Origin: Branchiostoma lanceolatum
Taxonomy: Eukaryota; Chordata; Leptocardii; Amphioxiformes; Branchiostomatidae
Assembly (NCBI RefSeq): GCF_035083965.1
Contig: NC_089724.1
Coordinates: 24,810,974 to 24,874,973, forward strand
Reading direction: 5' to 3'
Length of the DNA: 64,000 nt
Shown here in pieces: positions 1-45,100 of this stretch (positions within the stretch are counted from its first letter, which is position 1; each line of letters begins with the position of its first letter). The position numbers and the translations under genes are program-made. The notes below the pieces were generated by a model. It ran no database searches, was not told where the DNA came from, and saw only the letters and a program-made list of their open reading frames with translations.

Positions 1-3000
1 TCGACGGTAAGAAGAAACCCGTTGGTCCGATAGAAAGGGGTGTCAACTGCAACTTGTACAAAAATAAACAACGAAATGTAGCAACGATGTTGATGTAGAG
101 GGTTAACTCCCGACCTAGTCTTTCATTATGCTCCAGGCTCTGTTTGTAGTACTTCATGGCCGATGTCGGGTCCTTTTCACTCAACTTCCCGATGAAGTAG
201 AGACAGTCGGCGATGTCAGGATGGCTATGGAGTAGAAAATATACCATATGAACTAAAAACTTCATATATATATATTGATTGATAGCCATGATCCCCTTTT
301 AAATGACACAGATATAGATCAGGCGATTAACGATTTAGTACGTAAGATTCTTTTAACCCAGACTCACATCAACACAATAATTCATTGTCATCATATAAAC
401 AAAAGACAAAAGCCGTCGTAATTCTAATTGGACACAGTTACAATGTTATCTGTAGGTTCAATGTTACGAATAAACGGCGTATTTACCACCATGTACCTTT
501 CATAGATGCTTTCTAAGACTTTCTGTGCTTCTTGCACACGACTGGTTGCTTTGTCTAGACGTCCTAATGCCTCGTAGCACCGTGCGAAGTTGTATTGTAG
601 AAGTCCGTAGTTGTGTTGCTTCTGCAATGACATAATTGGTTTTAATTTAATAAGATTAACACGATTTGTGAATGATTTCCTCAGGTTGGTAAATAAATGG
701 ACATCAATGTTCCTTGGATTTGCACACAATCGGAGAATAACTACCAGCCAACATTTCGCTAGTTTGTAGGCTACCTGCCGCAGAGACCAACTGCGTCCGG
801 TCGATAGGTAGCGCTCATGTAGCCTCATTCGCAGACTTCCTCGAGCGGCGGCGTATATATTGGGGGGGGGGGGGGGGGGGGGGACACACGCAAGGGAGTT
901 ATGTAGCGGGTGACCGTCCGTCCTCGGCTACACAACTCCCTCGGCTACATAGCTCCCTTGCGTGCGTCCCCCCATCCAATATATACGCCGCCGTTCTAAT
1001 TCTAGGAAGTCTGCGCAGGAGGCTAGCGCTCATGCGAGATAACGTTTGTATCCCCCCTCGTCCCGGTTCATGACTCATTAAACAAGTAGATTTTCTGATC
1101 CAGACATCTTGCTTGAAAAATAGTCTAGCGCCTGCATCTGAATCAGAAAGGCTACTAACAGTCATGTAGCGGAACGAGGGGGATACAAACGCAGTCACGT
1201 TTGGGACCGCATTCTTGCACAGGGCAATCTAGCGGCGAGAAGAAGGTACTGTCATTATTATAGGTACTGAGGAAGATAGCAGACTTTGATATCCATCGAC
1301 GCGATTTTATTAAAAAAAGGCTGTACTAGTAGCAGCATCTGTTAAATATATGAGCCAATGCTATGGTTATATCGTTCATGTGCGTGAACCGGAACATGCA
1401 GTACCGACCTCAAGATGCATGCGTTTGACGAGTTTCTCAGCATTCTCAAAGGTCTCCAGTGCTTTGTCGAAGTACTGACGGACTTCTGCGGTTCCCTTGT
1501 AGTACCAGCCCATGTCAAGGTAAACAACGCCAATGTTCATGAGATAAGTGGCGCAGTCAAAGTGGTTGCCCTGTCCTGAAAAATTAATTTAAAAAATGAT
1601 ATGTTGCAACATTCGATGTTTCATTGGTAACAATGCTGTATATAGAGAATACAACATGGGGTATTCCGTATCAACCGAGGTTCCAGCCCGATCGCGGGTA
1701 GAATCGCCCGACGGCCGTAGTGCATCTATTCTCCTCTTTTCAATGTGATCCTCAGAGTGGGGGAAATTATGTCTCTATTGTATACAGTGGGTTTTTGACC
1801 CAAGCCATTAGACAAAGTATTGGTCTTTGTATTGGCAAATTGAAACACTCCGTAAGTTTGTATTTGTATAAAAATGTACAAGGGAGTTGGCTACATTGAG
1901 GGCGTGAGAAAATAAGTAGATGCGCATTGAATTTTTTTGTGCATTTTTAACTTGGTTAGATTCCCTGCCTGATTATAGTGAAGCTTCAGCTTTGTCAGAA
2001 AACTGTTTTCAGAGCTTACTTTTGGTATGAAACTTCATGGATATTCTTTCAACTTGAAAGTAAGAAAGTTGTGTTGTGATTTTGCAAAGGAGATATGCTT
2101 TGTGCACTCATTGGAATGATGTCCATTTGGAGTAGGCATACATTGATTAGCCCGGGTGCCATCCTATTTCTACCGGGGCTCCTACACTCGCTAGGGTAGC
2201 GAGTGTAGGAGCCCCGGTAGAAATAGGATGGCACCCAGGCTATACATTGACATCATGTGATTATATAGTTGTGACGCACACATTTTATGTTTGTTCCATG
2301 TACACTTCTCTATATTATAGTAGATCTAAATGCAAATATTTGGTGTTGTACATAACAAGTATTTGTATTAGAAGTAGCTCACACTGTAAGGTTTGTTTGT
2401 AAATCAAAATCTTATATGATCAAAGGCGATAGAGAATAAATAAAGATTAACACACAACACTGGTTTTGATATTATCTGTCTTTTGTTGCATCGTCAGATT
2501 GATGGTATCAAAAGTAGAGGTTTGTCTTCAGTACTACAGAAAGCTTCAAGAGGCCCATAATAGGATTTGTACTTCGTTTTGCCAACACCTCAGAAAGGAA
2601 GAAAAACGAATGAGAGAAAGGCTTGCGGATGTGAAATAATCAATACATGGTGTATAAAAACCTTACCGACAGCTTTGGTTATGATATCGTGTGCCTCCTG
2701 ATGCCTCTCCAGGCTGTTCTGAAGCATCGCGAAGTATGCCTGGCCCCTCCTCCACATGTTCTTGGCATGATTATGATGAGCGAATCCCAGGGAATTCACC
2801 ACCCGGGCATGCAGAACGTGATTTCCAGCAATCTTCACCTGAACAAAGGGAAGCCCAGACAATCAGAGATTGCAGACTTTGCCCATACTGCCTTGCCATC
2901 ATTCCAATCCCAAAGGTATATTGCTGAGGAGTACTGCAATACTACCTTATTATATACATTGCGAATCACTGGCTGATTAGTGCACACATTCGTAAAAGAG

Positions 3001-6000
3001 AGAAAGGAGATATACACAGACAAGTAAGCGAAAAACAGTACTACTAGTTCACTCCCTTTGGGAGATGTAATGGGTCCTACACTATAACAGACTCAAATGT
3101 CACTGAAGATGAGAATGCAAAACAGACGGTCCAAATTTGCGTCTCACTTTTAGTAGCATTTACATTGTACTTACCTTCGACATGATCTCGAGAGCCTGTT
3201 CAAGGTGGCGGACATTCCGTTTGTAATCGTCGCGAAGACTGAAGTAAATACCTGCAAGGGGACAAAAACAACATGCAGTTTCAACATGTATATATATATA
3301 TAAATTCTCCGACCAGGTAATAACAAAAACTTTTAGAAAGGGGGGCATACTGCTTCTGTGCTTAGAACTAAGCAATGATGAGAGTATGGCAGTTCAACAC
3401 ACAGTGCTACTAAGTGAATAGCCCCCTGCATGCTGTAGTATTATCTGTGATTGCACAGTTGTGTGGCCGAAGGACTAGGGATAGTAGATTGCCGCAGCCC
3501 TATATACATTTCGGTATGGGAAGTATTCAAACATAATGCCACCATCAAGTATACATGTTGACACTGGACTCTTCGGCATCAAGGTTATACATATACTAAT
3601 ATGGCTACCTGATACGTAGTGGTATCTTGCAAAGCTCAGTTGGACAGATTCATCTCCCCTGTCTGGCCTGGCCTCCAGTGCCTTCCTTGCCTCCTCCAGT
3701 CCATCCCAGGCCTCCTCTTGCGTGTTCACTTGGAGCAATGCTTCTGCCAGCCAACACAGCATCTCGGCGTAGATCTGCTTGTTCTGGTAAATATGCCGTT
3801 TATTACGTCAATGTACTGATCATAGTTGACATAATTGACTAGGCATGTCAGCAACGTACAAAGTTACTGATCTGTATCAAGAAATTGGTTGAACAGGAAG
3901 ATACTCAAGTTTGCTTGCTACTGTTGCATCGTCATAAGAATTAAGGCTTGGAGTGAAAGTTAATCTGATTTGGTGATACGTTGATGAAGGTTAGACATCC
4001 AGGTAGTAAGATACGCCAAAAATACTTACTCAGGTGAAACAGTCAGACGTTTCAGACAGTATCCGCTGTCTTTCGTCAGTCACTTGGTGATAATTATGGA
4101 AAAGCTTTTCTGAACACGTGAGAATGGATCTTAACGAATCGCGATCTTCGTCGGCGTAACGGGGGCCGATACCGACTTGTACCCACCTTTGACCCTTTTC
4201 TCGCGTCACAAGTTCCGTAAGGTCACATGCTCTGAGCAATCGGGCCACTAGTACTCCTGGCGAACACTGGGTGAGTCCATTATCTTGCGTTATCAAAATT
4301 TAAAAAAAAACTAATAAGTTTTAAAAAATCTTTTGTCCCATAAGAATCAAATTTAAACGTATATATGGGAAACAGTCGTCCTTACCTGCTTTTCTAGTTG
4401 TTTTGTTTGACCTGTGTAAAAAGCAATCCTGTCCTTCACTACCATCATTTGTTCGAGCAAAATGTGGACAACGCTCCTGTCAGCAACCTCCTCGGCTTTA
4501 ATGTCCATTAACCAGGTATGACTGTCATCCCTCTCCTTTCGCCTCCTGTATCAAACACACAAACAAGTATGATTTTACCCCAATTCCCTATCATAAAATC
4601 GAACAAAATGCACAGAGAAGACAAGTGCGACGTTGTCTACCGCATTCAGTGCCAGGGAACTACAAAGCCAAGGGACCTGCGAAAAATTCTACATCGGTGA
4701 TACATTCTACATCCACATTGAATCACGTTTCACTAGACAAAGCAGAACACTGCACACCGGACAGGACTACTTTACGAGAGGTATAAAGGAGGCCATATAT
4801 ATCAGGGCACTCCAGCAATCACTCAACAGAAACAGTGGGCGTTATAAACTTCCTGGCACGTTTGACCAATTGCTGACGTCACGTATGCGCAAAGGCACGC
4901 GTCAATACTTGAAGTTCACGTGTCTGTAACTCTCATGTTTACGTTCGGAAGTGTTTGGTCATTATTAATCTTGAAGAAGGTGATCCTGTATATTCCTCAG
5001 TATTGGAAAAAAGTTTAGCATTGTATTATATAACCCCTTACCACTCATAGTCGTCATGGGTCTCACATTGTACCAGGGTTAGGAAGTGATTGAAGTTGCC
5101 GACATCGTTGTTGTATGTAGCAAGGGCCTGTTGTATGTTGCTCTGCAAGTTCTGTGCAACTGTAGTCAGTCTTTCTTCGTACAGCTTAAAAAAAATAAAG
5201 GACAAGATAATCCCAACAATCTAATGATACATGTATAGCCAAGCTGCAGGTAATGTGTGATTCTTGTTTCAGTAGTCGATGTAATTAAATTTTGTGAGTA
5301 ACGGAGACATCACTTGAGATGTACATGTAATTTATATGAAGTGTATCACATGCACACAATCAGTCAAGAAAATAATAACGCGATTCTAGTTTAATTGAAA
5401 GACAAATTGACATCCAAATATCTTGGTCATTTCAGAAATAAGACATCAGTTCCTGCTGGAACGTATAAAAGTGGGAGTGTTCCGTTTGTGTGTTTACGGT
5501 TGTGTCAACGGACCGCCGATGTGCAAAATGAGGGCTTAAGGACATGAAGTCCCGACCCATTGATGTTACAGACAGCAACGTTGGACTACCAAACCAACAA
5601 AACGACCATGTACCTTTTTGAACCTGTACTTAGCTGCAGCCATCTCCTGCACAGTAACGGCGTCGGTGTTGAAGGTGGACACGAATGTCCGCACCACGTC
5701 GTGTGTGTCATATCTAGGCTCTCCATCATTGCTGCGACTGGAAGACACAAAAGTATGCACTCCGCTATAGCTATATCCTTTCTCTTTGCCATTTTCGATC
5801 TGTGGCAACAACTTAGGAATTTTCAATAGTGCAAAACTTACACCGACGTTAACCGCTAGCTGTACTGTTACAGTTATAAACAATGTTTGTTTAAAGGTGA
5901 CTGATAATCATGAGTGAAACACGTGTCCAGGGCACAGTACTCCGAAGAACGTTGGATTCAACAAAACAGCCAAGCGTAGCATAATCATTACGCATCCTAG

Positions 6001-9000
6001 GATTTATTTGGGGTAAGGATATGTCCATCTTGTCAATGGTCACTTCCTAAATGTAGACCATATAATGCGAACTCTGTAGTGCTAATGTACTCGGCGCTAA
6101 ATGTAAGACGTTTTCTGTATTTACTAGCTAGTGGATTTGTTCAACTTGGGGAATTATGTTAGCGAGCTGCAGCAAACATTTTCGATACAAATTTCGCGAT
6201 GCATGCCCTTTTGAAATTATTGTTTACCAAGCAAGCTTATACTTCGGCTATGCATAAGGTGTTCCTGTAGCAAAAAAGGATCATTCTCATTTTCGTCCAC
6301 CTACCTTCCCGCTTTGATGAGACTGCGGGTCCTCAGCTCCCTGAGATGGCCCCATACTTGGAGCAGCTGTTCACGCTGTCCAATGATAATACAGGCAGAT
6401 TCCACAGTGAACGGCCCGGCAAAAACAGACATCAACTTCAACGTGGCCAGCAGATCCCTACTCAACGTGCTGACTACTTCGGTTAGGAAACCACGAATGT
6501 CGCCCATCTCCTGAGAATGTATAATGTACGAGGGTGATTAAAAAACAAACGCAATTTTCATCATAGCAGGTTCATTTTTGTATGAAATGTGTTGAAATTT
6601 GGCACACATGTAAAGGAACATCTCTTCTTGAGACTGACGTAGGTCACTGTATTTTTCACATTTTACCAGGGACTGAGTGGACTTCATTGCATTACTGTGT
6701 GATTTCAGTTCCCTAAAGTATCAATGGAATGTGATCAAATAAACGTGCTCGTCCTCAGCCTGAGGTAACCCAATAGCTTGCCAAAGAAAATTGACCAAAG
6801 ATTGCCCAAAACAACCAAATACGCCTAAATTATAATGACAATCATAAATAAGATTTACCGTCAGATTCCCCAGACGTTTAATCATCTCTGACGGTTGCAG
6901 ACGGTCCTTCCGAATGACTCCACATGCTATCCTGATGGCGAGTGGCCAGCCATTGCACCTATGTGGCAAGATGATATTGATACAAGAGATTAGTATTTGC
7001 AGAGCAATCGTAATTTAACTCCATAGACTCTGCAGCCCAGCTACGGTTTACCCTTGTTGTGTATTACGTCTTGTATTACGTCATCCAAATTCTGGTATCA
7101 ATTTTGTTGCTGGCCTCTCGCAAAATAGCTAAAAGATGTACTAAAATATCACTAGATCACTACCAACATTGCTAGAAACGTACGTGCTTGTGCTGCTGTC
7201 CTTGAGACTTTGAAATAATGATAGTCCAAGTACGTCAGAATGTATAGAGTCATTTTTTGTCCCCTCTTTTTCGACTTGTGCCCAAGCCATCTCCCATCTA
7301 CCCACCTTTTACAGACTTCACGGGCGTCCTCCTTTGTGATGTTTCCCTTCCCTACAAGTCTCTGCACCAAGTCTGTCCCATCGGAGTCCGCCAGCATCTC
7401 CAAATCGACTGTGGTCGCTTTCATTGATGGGACGTCACCCAGGCCTGGTCCACTTACAATGGACAATCGTGACGTAACAATGACATGAACCTACACATGA
7501 TTACAAAAATAGACTTGATTATTTATCACATTTATCTCGTTCTGATAAGAAAACCGTGATAACTAGAAGAACTGGTGATAACTCATTTTGGTACAAATAT
7601 ATACTTTTAGTGAGCTAGCGACCCTCTGTATATAGTGAATTCATGAAATAGGGGTCGCTATCTCATTAATTCACTAGAATGAAAATCCTAAATCTCTATC
7701 TAGTCAGTTAATGAGATAGAGGGTCGCTATATAGCTATCTCATTTATTCACTAGAAGGAGAATTCACGAACCTATTTAGTGAATTGATTAGATAAAGGGT
7801 CGCTATCTCATTGATTTACTAAAAAGAGAATCCTGGATCTGATTCTGTCAACGTCTACGTAAATAATGTGATACGTTTGTGACAATTATAATTAACCATT
7901 TATCACGTCTGAATGTACATATAGTTATCACAGTTTTTCATTTAAGTACAAAAAAAGATAAATGTCTGTTCTCTCACTGAATCTAAAAAAAGACACAATA
8001 TATCAAATGTGATAACTTTATAACCGGAGATTTCTATGAAAGGAACTGAGACGGCAGTTTCCGAAACAAGACAGGAGAATTTTTTGCAACAACTGCAACT
8101 ACTATCCCAAGAATGCTATTTCTGAGTTTGCGATCGTACGACGATCGTGCGACGAATGTGACCAGGCCCCCAAACAAAAGATTTTGATAGTGTGACGTCT
8201 GTTGTTCGTTTTTTTTTAGAACAGACAAGACCAGACAGTCTTGTGATATAAACAGATACAAGAATAGACGAGTTGGCTATGAGACAAGACTTGGTCACTT
8301 GTACCTTTGAATTTTGCTTGTCCCGAACTTTTGCCAAAAAGCTGACGAATTTACGTCGAGACTCATCCACCTCCAACAGACCATCTGCATCATCCAGAAC
8401 GAGACAGCAGTCTGCAGAGGTGTACATGGCAAAGAGTAAATCTCATACAGTGATAAGTTCCTAATGACATGAAAACTTAGAAGAACTTTCCATATGCGTA
8501 CATCTGAAATTGGACATACCTTCACCGCCATACGTCCCTATGAGATGCGCCGCCATTGCTTCTACTTCCGTGTTGCCATCCCCGTTGATCTCAGTGAATC
8601 CAAATTCTCGCATAATCAAGGGAAGCATGTTGTCTACACTTGATACCTAGGAAACATAGAATTTTAAAAAAATCCTTTTTTTGTAATCGGTTGATGGATT
8701 GATTGATTGATGGTCGGAATCAGTTGTTAGTATAACAATGTCTATTTGGAAATTATGTGCAAAAATAACATTTTTACCTTTGCTAAGCTGATGAAAATCT
8801 CCCTCCTCCCTTGCTCCAAACAAAGTTGGTGAGCAAATGTGGTCTTTCCAACTCCAGCTAGTCCGTTTAAACCTATGATCTGTGACACAACGCAGTGTGA
8901 AACTAGTTTCAGAAAAACAACGGGTAAGTACTTGTGGTGTTGAAATGTAACTGAAATAGTCTGTAACATGCCAGCAGCAAAATTCATTGCAACAGTTGCT

Positions 9001-12000
9001 GCCTGTGTGATGTACAATAGACACTATTTATAGAGGCCTGGCAACTCTAGATCGCCGCTGAAAAATGTTTGTGTGTTCTTGCACGGTCAAAAACAAGTAA
9101 TACTAAAAGTAATACAGTGTATTTTAAATGTTTAATTTTTAGTACAAATGACGTTGCCAACAACGAATGATCAATGAGGCTATGAAGCTATTACGAGCAA
9201 GGATTTATGATTGAAACTCAACGAAAAAACAACCCCAACTTTTGTCATGAATTCAGAATATATCTATAAATGAATAAATAAATAAATAAATAAATAAAAA
9301 GAGAATAGAAACAAGCTGGTCCATTTTGTCACTGACAATATATAGCTTGAAAGTTATGTGGATAACTTGATGAGGGTTAGACATCTAGGTAGAAAATTAC
9401 GTAATACAAGATAAATTAAGCAACTGGATACATTCTCTGAAGAGTTAGATCTTTCAGATAGCATCAAATATCTTTTATTTATGACTCAGACTCTGTAATT
9501 TATTCAGTTAATGATGATAATTCATTACTTTTGTATTATTGTGCTGATACCTAGTTATGTGTACGCCTCTTGTAACTCAGCTACTTTTGCTGTTATATGA
9601 ATTAAAACTATGAAAAACGTTGATTTAATGCCTTACTTTTACATGTGTGTCGCCCCCATCAGTGCTGATTCTGTTGATCACGCTCTTCATTTCCTTCTCC
9701 CTGCCGACGAAATCAATGTTTTCTCCTGCGTTCTCAATATCCAGCTGCAGCAACGACAGTTTAACGGCGGTGTGCAAACAAATACGAATCAAGGACAACT
9801 TGGCAAAAATAAACGCGCGCCAAGGAGGCTTACGAATTGTGAAGCTGATGCTGCATTTCTTTTGGTATGTATGCCGCTCATCTACAAGCATATAGCGAAT
9901 GATAAATTTCGTGCAAAGAAATTTGACCACTTTATACAGGAATACGTCAGCTAGTTACCTACTGTTGATTAAGAGACTTTTCATACTTTGAGCTGTTGTA
10001 TCATTTTAGTATTTAACTGCACAGGAAACAAATGCGCGTTTTTGGTACTTAAAGGAGTCCTAAAGTTCAGAGGGGGGAGTTATTTTCCAATGGATGGTAA
10101 TTTTAGGAAGTAGAAATGACTATTTTTTACATTATACGATAAAGTACCCACTATCCCGTGCGCATCCAAAAGTATTCAGTATTCTATCAAATTCCCCAGG
10201 TGACCCTCAGCCTATGTGATTTTTACAATGTGCCTGACAATGCCTTACAAAAGTTAGATTACAAAAAGAATGTCAGGGTGGTTAAGAAAGATCTTCTTGC
10301 TATGTGCTCTTGTATATCTTATCAACAATTGGCCTTCTTATTGTGCTTAACCACCCTCATTTACGCCTAAAATATCCACGTTTAAAAATGTATGTTTACG
10401 CATAGGGAATGCACTGGTAGGGTCTGCAGGGGTTTAGTGAGTATCATATTGTTTTAAAAAACACACCTTGTGTAATTCACCACAAGCGGAATCATGTACA
10501 AAGTCGGCTGATTATGTATTGATTGATACATAATCTAGTGGAAAATAACACCGCCTTCTGGCGTTTAGGACTCCTTTAAGTAATAGTAATAGTCTTTACA
10601 TCATCAGAATATCCGTTGTTATAAAAGCAATAAAGAAAGAAATTACCTCAAAATGGCGTCTGTCGAAATTCTCCACGCCTTCAAACAGCTTCAATGTATT
10701 GGTGACCTTATCTTCATCAGACCCAAGAAGATCATCTGGGACCACAAGGAACATTAAGAATGGCTTTTAGTTTAAAACTCCTTCTTGCACAACCGAAAGA
10801 AAATCAACTGACAACATTTCGGGAGCGGTCCTGCTATCTTTCTCAATGCAATAATGACATGAGCTTTTTAGCTAGGTTTTATAATTTTGGTTGTGTAAAA
10901 AAAGGACTCTAAAACCCATTGATTTACCGACCAGATGAAACTATTCTCGGATTGAGAAGGACGACCACCATTAAGACGATGTAATCCAAAGATATCCTTT
11001 TACTTTATAATCTATAAAAATGACTTCCAGGCTTTGATAATATGCACGAAATTCGTATTGATAATTTTGATAGGATTTCCTTACCTGCTTCCAGTTGCTT
11101 GATGATGTCCGTCAGATCTATGAGGTTCTCGTACGGAGCCATTTTCTCTTCACCATGATCGAGGCGGATTTTGTCTTTTACGGTCTAAAGTTGGGGTAGA
11201 TATGTTTTATTCATGTATATCTAGCAATTTATTTCAATTTCAGCTAATAAAATAAGATAATGTTAAAGAAGTAACTATACAAATGTATCAACAAGTCCAG
11301 GTACTAACTGCACAGAACTATTCAAGCGAATATGAATAATTTGAAAAAAAGATATGTTCTATATATAGATCACAGTGGTCGAAAGAAAACGAGAGTGCAT
11401 GTGTCTGTACGAAAGGAGTATGTTTCAATGTAAGATAGACATATCATGACTCGCTTTTAACACCCAAGAGAACTATGTTTAATATCATTAATTCATCACA
11501 AACCTGAACATCTTCGTCAGTTATAATTAGCTCCTGAGATATCTTGAAGACCAGCCTGTGAAGAGGGGTAGTGGCTGTTCGCAGTGTGTGTCCGGGCACA
11601 GAGGAACGGGTGTCTGCTTTCTGAGCATCAACAGCTTTCTCTGCGTGAGAGCAGAAATAAACACACAGAACTGTAATTAGTATGCTTTTGTGTTTTCTTT
11701 GATAATTATAGAATCATGATCAACCCCCAAGTCTAAAAAACGAAGGCATCATATCTATTGTTGAATAGGTATTCTGCAAAATTGTGCATTTTTGTCCTAT
11801 GATACTTTCGTTCGCAGCTATCGATACGCAATTATAGTAAATACGATGATTTTGACAAAGCAGATATACGGTATATATATCATATATATCAGTATATCAA
11901 TACATGGGGATTAACTACCGTTTAAACTACAGTTTCTAAGATCTAAACATTCTCTACAAATGTAGTCATCAATGTGCACACTGTAATGCATAATTGTCAT

Positions 12001-15000
12001 TTTCTACCTTTATTCTCCAGGTATCTCTCCCATCGCCTATAGTCTCTCTTCAGGATTATGACCCTCACGAACACGTCCTGGCCGACGACTGCCCTCATCT
12101 CGTCGGTGACGAGTGCCCCGGTCAGTTCACCACTGAGCGCGCCGCTCGTGTAATCTTCCCAAAACTCGTACAAGTAACTGATCAAGTCGAATGTCAAGTA
12201 TAACAGCACACAGCCATCCTCGACTCTTTCTATGCGAGCATATTTTCTCTCATAACGACGAATGTACTTCTTACATTTTCTTTGAACATCCTTCTTTGAC
12301 ATCAACCCATGGTCTTTTACTTTTCGTAACATTTTGAGATGGGCCTCTGTACGTTTTTTCAATCGTTTAATCTTTTGGTCCTTCAGCTCATTTTCAGACG
12401 ATCCAAAGTCAGCACACGCACTAGCAGCAGAAGTTGACGGTGATGGTGGTTGGTCATTATCGCCTGGTGCGTCAGTGTCCACGTATAGAAGCACCGGTAG
12501 TGCTGAGGAAAGTAGATTATGTCATTCTTTACGTTTCTTCTTCAGAAGAAAGTATAATCTCTTCAGTGTGATGTCACCACAAGAGTCTTGTAACGGGACG
12601 ACATAAATGGACGTAATTTCATAGTCATCGGTCATCCCATCCTAAAAATCACATCTTTTGCAGTGCATGTATATTAACAATATTTTTTTTGGTAAAAACG
12701 TTTTTCAGAATACATGTAGATATATGTATCTATACAGAAAGGAGATATTCAAGACATCGATTAAGTGAGGACAGATACTCCTTGCTGTGGCCGTGGAACG
12801 ATCTTTATTAAAACCCTTAAGCTGCCAGGTTTTTTAGCCAAGTAAAAATCAAAAATGTTTGACCCCTGACCTCCCTCACGAAACCCGCGAAACACCCGGC
12901 GGCGCTAACTCCCCTAACTTCCCGGATTCGCGCGCTACACGCACGCAAAGCTGTTTTGTTCTGGAGAATACCCTATCCCGGTTATAACCGGGTCCAGCAC
13001 ACAAGGCATATTTCTGTATCCCTAGTTAAGTCGGGACTGGCAGCTTAAGGGTTAAACGCTCGCATGCTCTCCCCCCTATTAGTATCGTCCACCTGCCTTG
13101 TGTTACCTATTGTGTGTCCCTTTTTGTCTGTTCTGGACTGATGACTCATTGTCAAATACAGCATATTCACCAGGTTCTTCCTTAGGTTAATCAATTATGT
13201 TGCAGTTTTCAAATATGATGCGGTAGGTTTGTTGAGACGAAAAATACGCGCGATCCTCTGTCGATTGTAAGACAGGGTGACCTTCTGTGCGAAAGAAACT
13301 AGTCGACTGTGTGACAGGGTCTTAACGCTTTAATTCCAGAAAGGAAATACCATGAGCAAGATTACCTGACTCTTGATGTTCAGCTTCCCACTCTGCTCTA
13401 CTCTGTGTGATGTCTACCTGTTCAGGGGCGGTACCTGAACTAACTTCCTCCACGGGTGCAGCAGCAGCAGCAAACCGTAGCCGACTCTCAGGTGTCTCTG
13501 ATATGTCCTGGTTCAGAACTGTTAACGTAGAGTCGACAAAGAACACAATCGCTTTTACACCGCTATGTAATGAACACAAACATAGGGGAACCCGAAACCT
13601 GTTTTAGAGTAATGTTGATGCCGGGTGTTAATGATGCTTTTGAGTTGGACGTCACATAGGCGTATTGTTAGAGTAGCCGCCAAATCTAGCTGCTTGTTAA
13701 TGTCATTTATTTTCGAAGATTAGATTCGATGAAAATCATTCGTTTGGGAGTTATGAAGCCGTTCAGAAATAGTATGAGTAGAATTCCTAGTTATCATACC
13801 AACAACAATGATCTCGTGAAAATTACCTTCTGACTCTCGGCGTTCATACTCCCGTTGAGCTTCAAGCTGCTGAACAATTTCCTCTTCTTTGTTGGAAAAA
13901 ATAAAAACAACCACGTTATGTTTTATAAACTGATATACATAACATTGTAGTATAATATCCACGTTTCATTTTAAGAAGGAGGGAATCAATAGACGTGTTT
14001 GTCTTGCCATCTTCTCTGATGGTCAAGAAATTACATTTTTACATATAGTAAGCTATATGATTACATCGTTGCATGTAATAACATACTCAAGATAACAGTT
14101 ACACAAGCAACTAAAAGATCCAGTTGCTTGAGTAACCGTCTTGTGTAATGTATATAATCATTAGTTTTTCTGTACATGTGTTTCCATAATACTCACCTTC
14201 CAACAAATCCACGATGTCTCTCCGCTCTAGCTCTGTGAAGGCATGTTTGAGGACATCAACAGTTGCGTCCTTCCCGTACATCTGCCGCCACTTGTCCAGC
14301 ACCTTTCTACATCCTTCGGTCGTGTCTCCCCTCTCCTCCTGGTCTATCGCCGAGATGTCTGTTTCACTCAGACCAAGCCTGCGGCCGATTTCTTTCCATC
14401 TATCTCTGGCATTTTCCACGATGATATGGAAGTAGTTATCCACCTGTTTAAATGTGATAAGTCTGGTTGGTCACAGCATAGGGCCCTTTAAACACACTCT
14501 TACATACGCTTTACCAGAAAAGCCGTTGCTTGAGAAATCTTTTGCTTGACATTTTGTAAATAATACATTCTTTGTCAATGAATTGCTATTGAAAGTCTTT
14601 GTTACTTCTAATTTTCTGTTTGTTTTCTGTACATGGCTGAAACGGCGGTTTATATCATGTTACCAACTATCAACTACTGATATTTGCGTTCATGAGAGAA
14701 TGCCATTTTGTCAGTATTTCATTAACGTTCCCAGTGCACTAGACATCATTTTTCGATACTCACTGTAGTAGGAGTCACAGAGGGCTGCTCAAGTGAAGTT
14801 GCATGTGCCATTGTTGAACTGGGAAGTTTCCGGACCATCATGTCTGTAATTCAAATATAAGAAAGGTGACATTGCGACAGTGCCAATATATTTTGTTTAT
14901 GTTTTCATCTTTAAATTCTGTACATGTTTTCCTGATGTAATGGGCATGCGTTTCACAAAAATAAACGCCGAGTGTGTCACAATTTTTTAAAATTCTTACA

Positions 15001-16171
15001 AGTCGTTTCTTACATACGCGTCTGTATACATCACCCATCGCAGCTCAATGGATATAGCTGGCTGAAGCAAAGCTGCAATTGCACTACTAGCTACTTGCAA
15101 AAGCATCATTCTTTAAGACAAAAGGAGAATCTGTTAACAAACCTGCCGACTGAGTCACGCTACGTCCATGTCTCGTTGTAGAGAGCCGCTGTACGATCTC
15201 AGCAGCGATGTTTGGCAGCTCATTAGAAACATCGTTTCTCTGTACACGTTTTGCACGGGTCTGTTTTAATGTGGGTGAGTACCTTCCGACAGACTCACTG
15301 AATGCATTGAAGTTGTCTTCGTTGGCATCAAGCCAAATGGGGAATTTATCTTTGTTGCTTTTCAGACATGTTTCAAACTCCAGTTTAGGCCAGTAGGGCT
15401 TGTTTAGGAATGATGTGCTAACGACAATGACAACAAGCTCTAAGCATGCACTTGATAAGGTCCCAATTATCCTGTCCCTGATGACGTCACCAGGTCTGAT
15501 AGAAACGTCATCATAAAAGATGTCTCTTTCGGCCAAACCCTGTTCTTGTAAGTTGTCGACCAACGGACGAACAAATGAGTCTTTGTCTTCCCCTGCGTGA
15601 ATGACAAATACACGAGGTTCTGGAAAGAAAGAAGGTAAACAAAATCACTTTTGCTGAGCGTTAAAGACGAATTATTATAACAGAAATGTATTTAAGTTTG
15701 AGCTCTGGAGGAGGTATTCACCAACATTTTTTTTTCATCATGAGGCCATACTGATTTGATTGTATGGGGCACATCCTCTGGGCACCCCAAAATGAGAGCG
15801 TGTGTAAAAAAATTAAAAATGGGCAAGACAAAAGTTGCGGATGTCATCCGTATAATCGAGGTTGACCTTAATTAACTATACTGATCATGTTCTAGTTTGC
15901 AAAACTTAGGTCTTATAATATGCACTTCTATAATAACTTCCATATGTCCAAGGATCTGTCAGAACAATACACTTTTCATCATCTACCACTAAGTCTAAGG
16001 TATCATAGCTTTTGCTAATATTATTCATACAAAGAAAAAGTCAGACATAATCTCAGATTTCTACCGCATAACTGCCTACACATTACTTAAGATATGATAT
16101 GGTAATCAATTCAACAATCTAGGCTTTCAAAAAAATTGTATACTATTACCTTGTCGTTCACTCTCTGCCAT
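1..16171 (-). CDS. TIR-Death-TRADD-N-like-DED-NB-ARC-TPR innate immune receptor (5' complete, 3' runs off the window)
   Basis: Predicted cytosolic NB-ARC (STAND ATPase) receptor. Coding exons in transcript order: 16171-16150, 15619-15143, 14843-14764, 14443-14197, 13886-13827, 13497-13366, 12502-12008, 11640-11504, 11184-11085, 10735-10647, 9744-9637, 8879-8778, 8646-8520, 8411-8305, 7490-7306, 6958-6859, 6510-6305, 5737-5614, 5184-5042, 4545-4386, 3783-3609, 3251-3175, 2838-2667, 1575-1409, 621-497, 224-(1). All phases join without a stop for more than 1,305 residues. The start MAESERQ follows a leader exon splice and is the first ATG in frame with the TIR. By analogy with NLR/APAF1 proteins, the TPR tail senses, NB-ARC switches, and the N-terminal domains signal. 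Donors at 1409 and 5614 were chosen over nearby alternatives because only they keep the frame. The last exon is open to the window edge, so the C-terminus is unknown. Architecture is well supported; ligand and pathway are not visible. Confidence 0.85.
820..1025. mobile_element. TAGCC-end MITE with exact 9-bp target duplication
   Basis: Terminal inverted repeats start TAGCCT and contain GCAGACTTCC near each end. The element is flanked by GCGCTCATG at 811-819 and again at 1026-1034. The interior is GC-rich with a poly-G run (about 860-883). It has no coding capacity and sits in a receptor intron. A second copy of this family lies at 36960-37141. Confidence 0.85.
1040..1200. repeat. Foldback element adjoining the first MITE
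   Basis: GTTTGTATCCCCC near 1045 is repeated inverted as GGGGGATACAAAC near 1178, giving a hairpin of about 150 bp. It directly follows the MITE target duplication. No coding frame of note. Confidence 0.55.
1638..1725. repeat. Half copy of the ATACAACA-GGGTATTCCG repeat
   Basis: This resembles one arm of the palindromic repeat at 47289-47418, sharing GGGTATTCCGTATCA and CCAGCCC. It lies in a receptor intron. Confidence 0.5.
2148..2242. mobile_element. Near-perfect palindromic TAGCC-end element
   Basis: Two arms of about 45 bp pair almost completely around a tiny loop (CTCGCTAGGGTAGCGAG). Flanks TACATTGAT (2139-2147) and TACATTGAC (2243-2251) match at 8 of 9 positions, which looks like an aged 9-bp target duplication. 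A diverged relative is at 19329-19440. Confidence 0.8.
3975..4310. repeat. Dispersed repeat carrying GTTAGACATCCAGG and GACAGTATCCGCTGTC
   Basis: The segment shares GATGAAGGTTAGACATCCAGG-like sequence and a following GTCAGACGTTTCAGAC block with 42705-42830 and, more weakly, with 9365-9500. An open frame on the minus strand here (residues ending ERQRILSETSDCF) is repeat sequence, not a receptor exon, because the exons on either side splice across it in frame. Possibly terminal sequence of the Penelope-like element at 4560-4990. Confidence 0.5.
4560..4990 (+). pseudogene. Penelope-like retroelement fragment (GIY-YIG endonuclease end)
   Basis: In two plus frames the translation shows CDVVYRIQCQGT, then CEKFYIGDTF, then FTRGIKEAIYIRALQQSLN and GRYKLPGTFDQLLTSRM. 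Spaced Cys residues, a YIG core, and KEA-x-YIR-x-LQ-x-x-LN-x-x-x-GRY-x-LP are the C-terminal GIY-YIG hallmarks of Penelope-like elements. It is frameshifted and 5'-truncated, and inserted antisense in a receptor intron. Confidence 0.7.
7606..7835. repeat. AT-rich minisatellite with GGGTCGCTATCTCATT units
   Basis: About four imperfect units of 60-70 bp alternate GGGTCGCTAT with TCATTnATTCACTA and a short AGAATCC stretch. Located in a receptor intron between the sensor-1 exon and the Walker B exon. Confidence 0.6.
9262..9300. repeat. (AAAT)n microsatellite
   Basis: About eight tetranucleotide AAAT units in a receptor intron. Immediately right of the 9365-9500 diverged repeat region. Confidence 0.8.
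10052..10580. mobile_element. Tc1/mariner-type MITE with CTTAAAGGAGTCCTAAA ends
   Basis: CTTAAAGGAGTCCTAAA at the left and its inverse TTTAGGACTCCTTTAAG at the right flank about 530 bp. Flanking TA on both sides fits a TA target duplication. A short plus ORF inside shows no recognisable domain. Confidence 0.65.
10647..11640 (-). other. Death effector domain (DED)-like region over three exons (residues about 526-613)
   Basis: Exons 11640-11504, 11184-11085 and 10735-10647 encode a six-helix death-fold. Helix 1 is LHRLVFKISQEL, helix 2 TDEDVQTVKDKI, a mid-helix YENLIDLTDIIKQLEADDLL, and a last helix DKVTNTLKLFEGVENFD. The order and the D-x-[LI]-x-x-L-E-x-x-x-L-L element resemble DEDs of caspase-8/FADD. 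It would recruit DED partners. A divergent CARD or second Death domain is possible but less likely. Confidence 0.65.
12008..12502 (-). other. TRADD-N-like domain exon with basic coiled segment (residues about 340-504)
   Basis: The first half is acidic/proline-rich then strongly basic and probably helical (ELKDQKIKRLKKRTEAHLK). The second half reads EDGCVLLYLTFDLISYLYEF, then WEDYTSGALSG, then DEMRAVVGQDVFVRVIILKRDY. The order hydrophobic strand, helix with W-x-x-Y-x-S-G-x-L, strand, then DYxxWxxYL matches the TRADD-like N-terminal domain described in animal NB-ARC/NACHT-TPR proteins. Assignment is from remembered family pattern. The exon is symmetric (phase 1-1). Confidence 0.7.
12816..13056. 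mobile_element. MITE with CCCTTAAGCTGCCAG ends, possibly piggyBac-derived
   Basis: CCCTTAAGCTGCCAG at the left is repeated inverted as CTGGCAGCTTAAGGG at the right. The right end is followed by TTAA, as for piggyBac; the left TTAA is displaced by two A's. No coding frame. It lies in the intron before the TRADD-N-like exon. Confidence 0.55.
14197..14443 (-). other. Death domain exon (residues about 194-275)
   Basis: The translation has the six-helix Death-domain pattern: RWKEIGRRLGLSETDISAI, then CRKVLDKWRQMYGKDATVDVL, then a final helix ERRDIVDLLEG. The W-x-x-[IL]-G-x-x-L-G-L core and the KWR...L-x-x-A segment are the family signature. It would assemble homotypically with other Death domains. 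The preceding 80-nt exon (14764-14843) plus this one form a unit with phase-1 introns at both outer ends. Confidence 0.85.
15143..15619 (-). other. TIR domain exon (residues about 8-166)
   Basis: One symmetric phase 1-1 exon encodes a whole TIR domain. Visible features are the first strand RVFVIHAGEDKDSFV, a BB-loop-like DVSIRPGD, hydrophobic strand LELVVIVVSTSF, and the alpha-C motif YWPKLEFE. In catalytic TIRs (SARM1, plant TIRs) the NAD-cleaving glutamate lies four residues after a conserved tryptophan. Here Trp84 is followed by Glu88 in that position. The domain therefore has the residue expected for NADase activity, although it could equally be a scaffold TIR. Confidence 0.85.
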
Positions 16172-18923: not shown

Positions 18924-20673
18924 TTACATTAACTTCTTCATTCTTTTCGAATCTTTGTTCACCCTACCAGTGGTTTTGTCCACTTCATCACCAAGAGACT
19001 CTATCTTCTCCCTCTGTAAGTCTATCTGAGTCTGTGTTTCCATGGCCAGAAGTTTAAGACTGGACAGTACATTGGTGATCTCTTTGGCTTCAGCCTCAGA
19101 AACCACACTCTCCTCTGATTGGACAGTTCTCTGGTCCTGGCTCTCTGTGATTGGTCTAGATATAGTCACATGTTCCTTCTCTAGAATGCTGGAGAGGGGA
19201 AGGTCATCTGTGTTTGTGACTGAAAGAAAAGAAGCACCAGACTGTCAGATCTCAGTTTGTTATTGCCGAGACATCTTCAATCATTTCATTCTGGAAATAA
19301 CTTTTTTACCATTTTCATAACTGTAATGTAGCCTGGGTGCCATCCTATTACTACCGGGGCTCCTACACTCGCTACCGTAAAAAAATAGGGTAGTGAGTGT
19401 AGGAGCCCAGGTAGTAATATTTAGGATGGCACCCATGCTAGATATGATAGAAATGAAAGTCACAAGGTGGCTTTGAACTTGCTACCCACTTCCAAATACA
19501 CTGTTAACTCTCAATCCCAAGGCAATAGGATAACATTTTATGGTTATAACACTTACAGTTTAAAGTTATGATATTTGTCACCCTTTAGGACGATTTTACA
19601 GCACCATGCATTTCTGTAGACCAAATGTATAGTAAAATGGCTTATAAAAGAACTCCATTGGAAAATTTGTACGTCTAGTCATGTTACATGTGTTGTTTAC
19701 CTGTTGCTGTAGGTGTCCGTGCAGCAGCTTTGTGTGTCCCTTCCCACGTGACAAGCTCATCTGGCTCTTCATACTCAATCTTTGGACCAATCACGTGATC
19801 CAAGGCTTGCAGGATGAGGGGCATTTTAGCAGACGAGAGGTGAAACACCACGTCTGGTTGGCCGATCATGTTTTTTCTAACGGTTGCCCTCCAGGGCGAT
19901 GATGCGACAATGGAAGAAATTTCTCTTAAACTATAAGACTGAAGAAGCTTCATCTTAGAGTCTTTTATGTCCAGAGTTTCTTTTGACACAGTTAGGGAGC
20001 CCGGCATGTAGTGATCTTTCTCCTTCTTTGCATACAGAACGTTATACTCAACAAAAGTAGCTTTCCATTCGAACTCCGTGTCTTGGGCAAACTTCCGCAA
20101 CTTTCTCCCGGGCGCCTTCCATCGTCCCATCCAGGACTCCAGTCCGCTGATGACCGTTTCTGCTACGTCAAGGTCCTGATTGATGTCGCCCACGGTCCGG
20201 TAGACGTCGTCAAGCTGCTCGCCTTGGAGCAGAAGCTCGTCCGCCGCCGCGCCCAGAGTGTCGTAAGAGTCGTACATGAGACTGAGCATCTCCTGCCCGA
20301 GTTTGGACGTCACTTCGCCACTCTGTGCGATTTCCTTACTGTGCGATCTCTTGATCGGGATGAGCCTCTCTCTCCAGAAGTGCTCGAGGGTTTTGTAGAC
20401 GGACATTGGATTCGCGAGGGAGGAGAACCAGTGTATTTCATCTGGTGTTGTTATGGTGACGGCGCTGAAGACGAGCATTGACGTACGCCGCTTTACCGCG
20501 GTGATGTCCTCGAAATGGATGGTGACGACAGTGTTTGAGGTGTCGTCATGGAAAACGATAGCCTCGGCGGTGACTGTTAACGTTCCGTTATAGACCCACT
20601 TCCGCAAGGAGTCCTGGTAGTAGGACGCCTTCCAGTCGTAGATGGGGTAAGGGCGGAAGACTACAGACGCCAT
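18924..20673 (-). CDS. SNAP47: SNAP47-like SNARE protein (synaptosomal-associated protein 47)
   Basis: Two coding exons, 20673-19701 and 19219-18924, join at phase 1 to give 422 residues (human SNAP47 is somewhat longer). The N-terminal part is a PH-like fold (TLTVTAEAIVFHDDTSNTV, HFEDITAVKRRTSMLVFSAV). A first Qb-type SNARE heptad region follows (LMYDSYDTLGAAADELLLQ ... LDDVYRTVGDINQDLDVAE). A second PH-like segment then ends at DELVTWEG. The C-terminal exon holds the Qc SNARE helix (ITNVLSSLKLLAMETQTQID ... IESLGDEVDKTTGRVNKDSK). Like its family it has no Cys palmitoylation linker and no membrane segment. The start ATG follows CAAAAGCC and is the only one that fits the family N-terminus. 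Role by homology: membrane fusion in secretory and autophagic traffic. Confidence 0.9.
19329..19440. mobile_element. TAGCC-end foldback element in the SNAP47 intron
   Basis: Arms share TAGCCTGGGTGCCATCCTAT and the ACTCGCTA core with the palindrome at 2148-2242. The right arm has small indels and ends CCCATGCTA. No intact target duplication is seen, so it is an older copy. Confidence 0.75.
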
Positions 20674-21549
20674 GGCTTTTGTTGAACTCCCTGGAACAAA
20701 AGGTTAGTTGATAATAGCATCTGGTGACGTGGGAAAAACTTAGTTTATGTTTACCTAACGTTATCCTGTACGATATCAAATTTCAAAATCCATATAACAC
20801 TATATCAATGCTAAATTATACAAATTTGACTCAAAAGGGACTTTTGTCTACTTTCGATTATGATGTCGAAAAGAGGGGTTTAACTGAAATCTCTGACAAG
20901 GAAGCATATAAGAGGGTCTGCATGCCCTTTTTCGTGAAGCGTTACGAGCGATTTTAATTCACCGTTAATCGTTACCGGCCGCCCTGAATTTACCGTTAAG
21001 CGTTATCGGTATATTCATCGTGAAGCGTTATTTGTCATCCTGAATTCAACGTTAAGCGTTATTGAGTAATTCCTCGTTACGCAGGAAAAAGCATTTCAGT
21101 GGGTCAAGATTTCAAAATTTTCTCCAGGGAGCTCACGGCTCTAGCGAAAATATTTCGGTAGGGCGCCCCCAGCCCCCCCCCCCCCCCCCCCACAAAATTT
21201 CAAGCTGAAACACTTCTATTTTTCCCTCTACCAGCAAAGTTTTCTACTCAAAATTCAGGAAATTAAGCGTTTCGTGGTTCAAGATTTTAAAATTTTCCCC
21301 GGGTGCATGCCGGGCCTTCGTCGAAAAATATTCTCAGGAGGGCATCGACCCCCAAAACTCAAGCTGAAACTCATCAGTATTTTTTCACAAACAGAGATAT
21401 CATTAATCTTAACTTACATTACCAGTAATATTTGCCCATCGAAATGCAAGAAATAGCGTTTCAGGGTATCAAGAATTTTCCTCGGGAGCATGTCGCAGCT
21501 CCGGCGAGGTCTGGAGGGCGTGACGCCCCTCAAAAATCAAGCTGAAACT

Positions 21550-23040: not shown

Positions 23041-36240
<13,200 letters not shown>

Positions 36241-42100: not shown

Positions 42101-45100
42101 CTGGTGCACCCAAAATTCTTTCTGTGCACCCAATTTTTTTAGTTGGGTGCACCAGTGCACCTATTCCCAAAGATGAATTTCGAGCCATGCCTGTTGAAAT
42201 GTCTCTCTCTCTCTCTCCAATTTTACGTCTTTTATTCCCCATCATATGGGGGTTGGACGTGCTTGCACATGGATGGGGGAGCCCCAGAACTCCTTATCAA
42301 GTGCAAGTCTTTTTTGTAGCAAGAGTTTTTACGGCTGGATGCCCTTCCTAACGCCAACCCAAACCCTACTGCTGGGCTTAGGACATGGGAAATATGTGTT
42401 AAGTGCCTTTCCCAAGGGCACAACGTCTGGGTGCATGTCCAGACATGTCTGGGTGCTCCACTGGCGATTGAACCTGGGTCTCATTGGTTCATAGCCGGAT
42501 GCGCTGCCACTATGCCACATAATGTATCATGTTGTAAATGTCCACTTGACCAGTCACAAACCTGCGCAGTGGTACTGTGGGACGTTCTTCTTGGCCAGCC
42601 ACTCAGCTAGCACGTTGTCCATCCGTTGTGGGGGGAACAACACTGGGAAGGGAAACTCCTCCTTGTACTGGGTTAAACTATAGACTCCCTGTTGGAGGCA
42701 GAACAGATGAAGGTTAGACATCCAGGTTATAAGATACGCCAAAAAAACAGTTACTGACAAGCTACTGGATAAAATGTTGAAATAGTCAGACGTTTCAGAC
42801 GGCATCCGCTGTCTTTCATCCATGGCTTATGGAGAACTAAAGAACCAGGTTTTATGATTTAGAAAAGAGAGATGTTTTTCATGAAGTCTAGGTTATTGTA
42901 AGTTTACCTTTCTCCTATAAGATTGCTGTATGAAATATGCCAGCATATTTAATCAGGCTTGAAAGACTTCTTTTTTAAATCCCGTAAAATCTCTATTTAC
43001 GTACGCACTTTTTAAATTTTTCAAGTCGCAAGCAGGTGGTCCAGGCTGACGCCAAAGTCGGGGTGCGTACGTTAGGAGGGGTTCTTCCTCGGAAAAATCG
43101 CATATCAAATCTCAAATCTTTATTTGTATGAATCAACATCACAGAAGTAACATATACAGGTACATGCACATCTGAATAGCGCTGATCTTACATATAATAT
43201 ACCTATGTACACAAATATGAAATAACAACGGACTACGACGCAGACTGCAATTGACTGTTGTACAAACGGATGGAGTAGTGGAGGAAAGAATTGTACAGTC
43301 TGTTCGTCCTGGCTAAGGGGACACTTATTCGGCCAGAGTTCCTTAGAGACCTTCCAGTGCCCACCGATCTAACGTCTGGAACCAGATCATGCAACGGGTG
43401 GTCTGATTTGAGCATGCACTTAAACAGTTTGAGAGCAGCAAGCTCACGTCTCTCCTTCAAAGTTGGAAGGGTTGGAAGACTCCTCCTTCCACCAAAAGAT
43501 ATGATCCTTAAGGCTCTTCTCTGAACCCTCTCCATTGCCAGTTCTTGTTGTCTGCTGCAGCCGACCAGGAGTACATGCCCATACTCAAGCACAGGCCTGA
43601 CCAAGGCTGTATACACTTGAAGAAGGTCAGACACGCTCATGCCTTGTTTGGTGAGGAGTCTAAGGTAATGAAGTCTCCGCGAGGCCTTGGTTACCATTGA
43701 ATTCACCTGCTCATTAAAAGTGAGACCTTTATCCAGAATGAAGCCAAGTCCCTTAGCCGAGTCCACAACAGGGACTGGTTGTCCCCCAAGGGTCAATGCA
43801 GGTGGCACAGGAACACGCTTGCAAAAACATATTTGGAGCAGCTGGCTCTTCATGCCGTTCAGTAACATCCTCTGTTCGCTAGCCCAAGAGTCAAGGTGGG
43901 ACGACTCCTCAGCGACTGACCTGTCCTCGTCCGTGCTAAAAGTGTCCTGGACAAGGTCACATCGTCGGCGTAGCCGATGTTCAACGTGTCGGTGTAAACT
44001 GTTGTCCGGGTGCTCATGAACAGTAAAAACAAGTATGGAGAGATGACTCCACCTTGCGGGACGCCAGATGTTAGTGTGCACCAGGAACTCATCTCACCAT
44101 TTGCAACTACTCTCTGCTGTCTGTCGGTCAGGTAGTTGTGAATCCATGCCACCATTCTTGAGCTAAGTTCAAGATCAATCACAGTCTGGAGGAGCAAAGC
44201 ATGATCAACACGATCAAATGCTTTGCTCATGTCAGCAAAAACTGCTCGAATAAGGGTTGGCTTTCTGGAGTCCAGAGCAGTCAGCCAGGTGTGAACCATG
44301 CGCACCAGGGCGATGGTCGTTGACGATCCCCGCAGGTACGCGTACTGGTCCCTGATAACTGCACGCAGTGAAGGGAGCAGTCTTTTCAGGACACACTTTT
44401 CAGGACACACTTTTCTAACGTACGCACCCCCTCTCCAGCATTTCGGTGGATAGTTAGAGGTTGACATGATCATCCTTCCGATGATGTTTACCGACTTAAA
44501 GCGTTACTGAGAAAAAGCTTGAGAGTACGGTACATCTTCATGCAAATGAAGTGTGGAATGCTACCACACAATCAATTAGTAATAAAGGATAGATAATAAA
44601 TATATTTAAATTGTTTGACATTTTCTCAGTAACGCTTTAAGTCGGTAAACATCATCGGAAGGATGATCATGTCAACCTCTAACTATCCACCGAAATGCTG
44701 GAGAGGGGGTGCGTACGTTAGGAGGGTTTTTCCCCTGAACGTTTCAACTCACTGAGTCAGGCCCGCAATCGTCCCCAAATCGGGGGTGCGTACGTTAGGA
44801 GGGGTGCGTACGTAAATAGGGATTTTACGGTATTGCAAGTTGTCAGATTTTAGTAGCAAACTTTATGCATATATCAACATTACCTTCTAACTTTACTTTT
44901 AACATAACAGCAACTATGATTCTCATTCGTTCAGACCCTTGTAGTGCCTAGCCTAATGTTGATAACTATCATGAAAAAAGGCAATGCCCTTCATATGCAT
45001 GTACTACATATTATGTGTATATGTGAAGTTCTTACTATATCCTTGGGGATGACAGACACGTCAAACGGTGGCTTGACGCCGAAGGTCTCCGCAATCTGCC

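Follow-up and report, generated by a model that had tools for sequence, protein, structure and literature searches.

The window, the whole stretch of DNA analysed here, comprises 64,000 nt of Branchiostoma lanceolatum (GCF_035083965.1, contig NC_089724.1, 24,810,974-24,874,973), and all positions below are window positions. A gene on the minus strand (14443-115) contained 22 exons encoding 1,136 residues identical to P0001, a public B. lanceolatum model of the same gene annotated as an uncharacterized protein. Residues 5-1140 of P0001 corresponded to the window translation from the Death exon onward with 0 mismatches in 1,136, indicating that this is a real and intact gene and not a chance string of frames. 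The domain order was Death, TRADD-N-like, DED-like, NB-ARC, winged helix and TPR, and the gene extends past the window edge, with 79 more residues in P0001. The exons were as follows:

14443-14197, minus strand: Death exon (Pfam Death 2.8e-16), identical in P0001
13886-13827, minus strand: small exon, phase 1-1, absent from P0001 (skipped)
13518-13366, minus strand: linker exon, phase 1-1, identical in P0001
12502-12008, minus strand: TRADD-N-like domain on a single exon of 495 nt, phase 1-1, called from the TRADD-like_N profile and relatives
11640-11504, minus strand: DED-like domain, exon a; orthologous segments match Pfam DED
11184-11085, minus strand: DED-like domain, exon b; orthologous segments match Pfam DED
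10735-10647, minus strand: DED-like domain, exon c; orthologous segments match Pfam DED, and helices are predicted in P0003
9744-9637, minus strand: start of NB-ARC (FVGREKE), Pfam NB-ARC
8879-8778, minus strand: NB-ARC exon with Walker A (GLAGVGKTT), Pfam NB-ARC
8646-8520, minus strand: NB-ARC exon, Pfam NB-ARC, matching P0001
8411-8305, minus strand: NB-ARC exon with Walker B (CLVLDDAD), Pfam NB-ARC
7490-7306, minus strand: NB-ARC exon with HVIVTSR, Pfam NB-ARC
6958-6859, minus strand: NB-ARC exon with GWPLA, Pfam NB-ARC
6510-6305, minus strand: winged-helix exon 1, identical in P0001, probable label assigned by position
5737-5614, minus strand: winged-helix exon 2 with the MHD-like THD, exon start fixed by P0001
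5184-5042, minus strand: helical exon matching P0001
4545-4386, minus strand: helical exon matching P0001
3783-3609, 3251-3175, 2838-2667, 1575-1409, 621-497 and 224-115, minus strand: six TPR exons (TPR_12; P0001)

A pseudogene reading was rejected, as the phase clash at 6305/5799 in an early exon model was resolved by the P0001 acceptor at 5737. An exon at 4266-4030 was discarded as false and is absent from P0001. Upstream on the same strand, the receptor gene has as its neighbour a long exon that is open and encodes a GRAM domain (19687-20703, minus strand, 1.1e-6), and it looks SNAP47-like. The window also contained a reverse transcriptase fragment (43862-44503, minus strand, RVT_1 2.6e-17) and an HSP70 exon (32200-32583, plus strand, 8.2e-33); an NAD-GH match antisense to the latter (32068-32601, minus strand) is probably spurious. 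Near-perfect inverted repeats with common sequence (92-96%) were found in an intron (2141-2249) and upstream of the gene (19329-19419), and resemble a small mobile element.

The Death domain scored 59.9 bits in Pfam, above the cut-off of 22.6, and its nearest solved structures by sequence were the death domains of ANK3, RIPK1 and FADD. NB-ARC and the start of the winged helix spanned 9744-6305 on the minus strand. In the joined 931-residue protein, NB-ARC (1.3e-12, residues 636-858) and TPR_12 (6.4e-16) were also above the Pfam cut-off. The NB-ARC motifs GLAGVGKTT, LVLDD, GWPLA and YDTHD were intact, and we take them to be Walker A, Walker B, GxP and the MHD-like motif, respectively. By its NB-ARC profile and motifs, the protein is of the APAF1/CED-4 type (STAND). 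The N-terminal CARD of APAF1 was represented only by a degraded piece at 16286-16167, and TPRs occupied the place of the C-terminal WD40.

The original prediction had also called TIR, TRADD-N and DED domains and proposed a check against domain profiles. TIR, Death, NB-ARC and TPR exceeded the Pfam cut-off, but TRADD-N and DED fell below it in the window protein. TRADD-like_N reached 0.016 (15.4 bits, cut-off 23.7) on the window protein and matched 8/9 aligned domain segments including relatives (best 4.5e-6). The TRADD-N superfamily has a motif, termed uS, in which a conserved tiny residue and Ser (sometimes Cys) lie between strands 2 and 3 (PMC8195603). The window carries G-C at this site, and G-S or G-C was present in eight of the nine aligned TRADD-N rows (G in 8, Ser in 2, Cys in 7). 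In the AlphaFold model of the B. floridae relative P0003, which is poor (mean pLDDT 55.8) and does not decide on the RRM-like fold expected of TRADD-N, the TRADD-N region had a pLDDT of about 41-57 and two strands only. Pfam DED gave no match in the window's own protein, but matched two of three orthologous segments (best 7.8e-5), the sole miss being the window's own. A three-row DED profile matched no DED among solved structures, and six helices were predicted at residues 495-587 of P0003 (block pLDDT about 37-81). The TRADD-N and DED calls, although below cut-off in the window protein, are supported by the profile matches of relatives. As predicted, P0001 combines the Death, TRADD-N-like and DED-like domains in one chain, ahead of NB-ARC and the TPRs.

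Upstream of the Death exon, the following features were found:

16286-16167, minus strand: degraded second half of a CARD exon with two in-frame stops in 40 codons (tblastn)
16171-16150, minus strand: putative leader exon (MAESERQ), absent from P0001; it overlaps the CARD relic and is read in a different frame
15619-15143, minus strand: TIR exon of 477 nt, phase 1-1, open, matching Pfam TIR_2 and solved bacterial TIRs
14843-14764, minus strand: putative linker exon running from phase 1 to phase 0, a homologue of the post-TRADD-N linker in P0008 and P0012
14749-14738, minus strand: start of P0001 (MMSS), followed by GC in place of GT (donor score -8.2)

TIR_2 was above cut-off in the window (5.4e-9); it reached 3.5e-9 when the TIR exon was taken alone and 1e-8 when leader, TIR, linker and Death were joined into a piece of 275 residues, and was missing from the Pfam table of the joined 931-residue protein. 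Among solved structures, the window TIR matched bacterial-named TIRs only (best 6.5e-12), and by sequence it is nearest to bacterial NAD-hydrolysing TIRs. The TLR-type signalling proposed in the original prediction is not favoured by these matches. A candidate for the catalytic Glu of NAD-hydrolysing TIRs was present in WPKLE (W-x-x-x-E), conserved as E in 22/22 relatives and aligned with the E of AbTIR. TLRs can also carry Glu at that position. The window TIR was 87% identical to that of P0010 and grouped with it in the tree (support 90/81). AU tests did not reject a pairing of the window TIR with that of P0003 (p 0.18) or of the P0002 and P0003 TIRs (p 0.138), but rejected a pairing of the window TIR with that of P0002 (p 0.0009). 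The window TIR may or may not be orthologous to its B. floridae counterpart: the tree favours P0010, and the AU test permits P0003.

The original prediction had placed TIR, Death, TRADD-N, DED, NB-ARC and TPR in one chain. The domains do lie in that order on the minus strand with fitting phases, but the membership of TIR in the chain was not confirmed, as P0001 omits it. A regular isoform running from leader, TIR and linker through Death, TRADD-N, DED, NB-ARC and TPR, in which TIR would act on NAD+ upon ring assembly, is a reading to which we give a real but clearly minor chance. In its favour, the leader, TIR and linker exons are phase-compatible with the Death exon at both new joints; in the TIR-containing chain, introns are GT-AG throughout and phases agree across 26 exons and 1,349 codons without a stop. 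Ranked among 958 AGs, the TIR acceptor reaches the 99.9th percentile and the linker acceptor 95.0; among 941 GTs the donors of leader, TIR and linker lie at 98.4, 95.2 and 87.2, respectively, the last being the weakest of the three upstream. The start context of the leader exon is strong (A at -3, G at +4), and neither AATAAA nor ATTAAA occurs within 15143-14443, between TIR and Death. TIR also appears to have been kept, since it is intact and 87% identical to its P0010 counterpart next to a CARD piece that is degraded. The order TIR then Death is not impossible, as it was seen in the CARD-bearing relatives P0015, P0023, P0024 and P0025 (CARD-TIR-Death). On the other hand, P0001 lacks the TIR, leader and linker exons and begins with MMSS at 14749, and P0003 starts at Death. 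The codon score of the linker exon was not best in its own frame, and a TGA (14748-14746) lies just past its putative donor. The full order was found in none of the 24 proteins (candidates of ~512-1629 aa) retrieved with residues 1-276; other permutations occurred in P0003 and P0002. The omission by P0001 is itself weak evidence against TIR, because its 5' end is doubtful, with a first-exon GC donor scoring -8.2. Overall, we regard regular inclusion of TIR as doubtful.

That the TIR exon never enters the receptor is a serious possibility that we place a little short of an even chance; it would then belong to a short gene of its own or be what is left of a CARD-TIR-TRADD-N gene in decay. The CARD relic, with its two stops, aligned with residues 54-93 of P0009 (21/40 identical, E 5e-9) and with P0006 (20/40 identical, E 3e-8) in tblastn, and its tail end forms the leader exon. 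CARD loss seems recurrent, because P0008, P0010 and P0016 begin inside the corresponding CARD tail. The linker exon was a homologue of the one that P0008 (2e-16) and P0012 (1e-16) carry behind TRADD-N, and a tblastn scan gave no TRADD-N match between the TIR and linker exons; it looks as though a TRADD-N exon once preceded the linker and was lost. Left unspliced at 14764, the TIR-linker frame reads VSIEK and then stops at the TGA. Against a separate gene or relic stand the open and well-conserved TIR frame and the absence of AATAAA or ATTAAA in 15143-14443. The search for relatives covered models of about 512-1629 aa, longer than a short TIR-only model would be. The TGA at 14748-14746 overlaps the P0001 start codon at 14749 (ATGA; region 14751-14738, minus strand), and a two-cistron message across this overlap is conceivable. 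It is quite improbable, in our estimate, that two products arise from the locus, one an adaptor with Death-TIR/TRADD-N-DED and the other an NB-ARC-TPR protein. The model of P0003 stops after 630 residues, and those of P0005 and P0028 start inside DED, but in P0001 and P0002 a single chain extends from the adaptors across the TPRs, and P0003 may be partial. The feared split between TIR-Death and DED-NB-ARC was not suggested by the data; the doubtful joint is that between TIR and Death.

To place the gene among its relatives, 28 proteins were collected and their domain orders obtained from an iterated profile scan. P0003 (B. floridae LOC118408456) showed the order Death-TIR-TRADD-N-DED-start of NB-ARC in a model that begins at Death and ends just inside NB-ARC, on a contig of 188,785 bases. 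A stack of all four adaptors, as originally predicted, is thus annotated in one model of this species, but not in the order claimed. P0003 resembled P0001 in Death (69/81 identical), TRADD-N (113/163) and DED (79/107), and their TRADD-Ns formed one clade (support 100/100). It differed from the window in having TIR between Death and TRADD-N, a TIR 48% identical to that of the window (tblastn), at a position that is a phase-1 intron in the window. P0002 (B. belcheri LOC109478460), a model flagged as low quality, showed TIR-TRADD-N-DED-NB-ARC-TPR; its DED-NB-ARC-TPR core was 70.6% identical to that of P0001 over 834 aligned positions, but it has TIR first, no Death, and a TRADD-N of another kind. 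Identity between P0001 and P0002 was low in the TRADD-N stretch (47/129) and held in DED (71/107), which places a break at the TRADD-N/DED intron. P0004 had Death-NB-ARC. Many lancelet relatives had CARD-TIR-TRADD-N with other tails; those such as P0006, P0007 and P0009 resembled the window in TIR (72-78% identical) and a homologous TRADD-N, but ended in LRRs or other regions without DED-NB-ARC-TPR. In B. floridae, P0020 and P0016 carried related TIR-TRADD-N modules before a RIG-I-like helicase or a zinc-finger protein. The exons of TIR and TRADD-N, as well as two small linker exons, have phase 1-1, and TIR and TRADD-N could move because each sits on such an exon. These orders are most simply explained by exon shuffling, with adaptors placed in front of a core that is conserved.

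We consider it probable that the locus is a single cytosolic APAF1-type STAND receptor gene with swappable, exon-borne adaptors at the front end and a conserved DED-NB-ARC-TPR core. The upstream TIR exon would derive from a CARD-TIR-TRADD-N type gene and would not be fixed in the main product; it may serve now and then as another front end, or be a mere left-over. Anatomy, phases and homology are observed, and each functional step is inferred. The TPRs would keep hold of a trigger or sense it, ring assembly would be driven by nucleotide exchange in NB-ARC, and the cluster of adaptors would bring in partners that carry Death or DED, for instance FADD-, RIPK- or caspase-8-like proteins; the TRADD-N-like domain would bind a further partner.

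Amphioxus APAF1-like NB-ARC receptors with exchanged N-terminal adaptors (TIR, Death) are described in the available parts of PMC2246300 and PMC2575513; TPR sometimes replaces WD40 in such proteins (PMC2246300), TIR-NB-ARC-WD40 is named in amphioxus (PMC2575513), and 'shortcut' receptors of amphioxus are already in print (PMC2575513, PMC2246300). The amphioxus APAF1-like proteins as printed in these parts have no TRADD-N and no multi-adaptor stack, in which the window receptor differs. Metazoan TRADD-N proteins, expanded in Branchiostoma, are reported with constant regions of DED and TRADD-N and with STAND partners; the amphioxus set in that paper is mostly DED-TRADD-N-WD40, unlike the NB-ARC-TPR chain of the window (PMC8195603). 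The present adaptor stack was not found described in the main text of the open-licence papers searched. The receptor is an APAF1-like receptor with shuffled adaptors, a variant of the kinds in print.

A stronger proposal, which we hold to be unlikely, is that a regular isoform joins an NADase-type TIR to Death-TRADD-N-DED-NB-ARC-TPR, the genus re-dealing phase-1 adaptor exons on one core with a new order per species. If the TIR-joined isoform were true, one ring would use up NAD+ and at the same time seed assemblies of Death and of DED, and if TIR were both enzymatic and joined, NAD+ loss would be coupled to caspase-type signalling in one animal receptor. Gain, loss and permutation of adaptors at phase-1 introns are seen here within one genus and on one orthologous receptor core. 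Because adaptors are permuted on a single orthologous core, the idea of amphioxus 'shortcut' immune proteins, which has been under discussion for long, becomes testable gene by gene.
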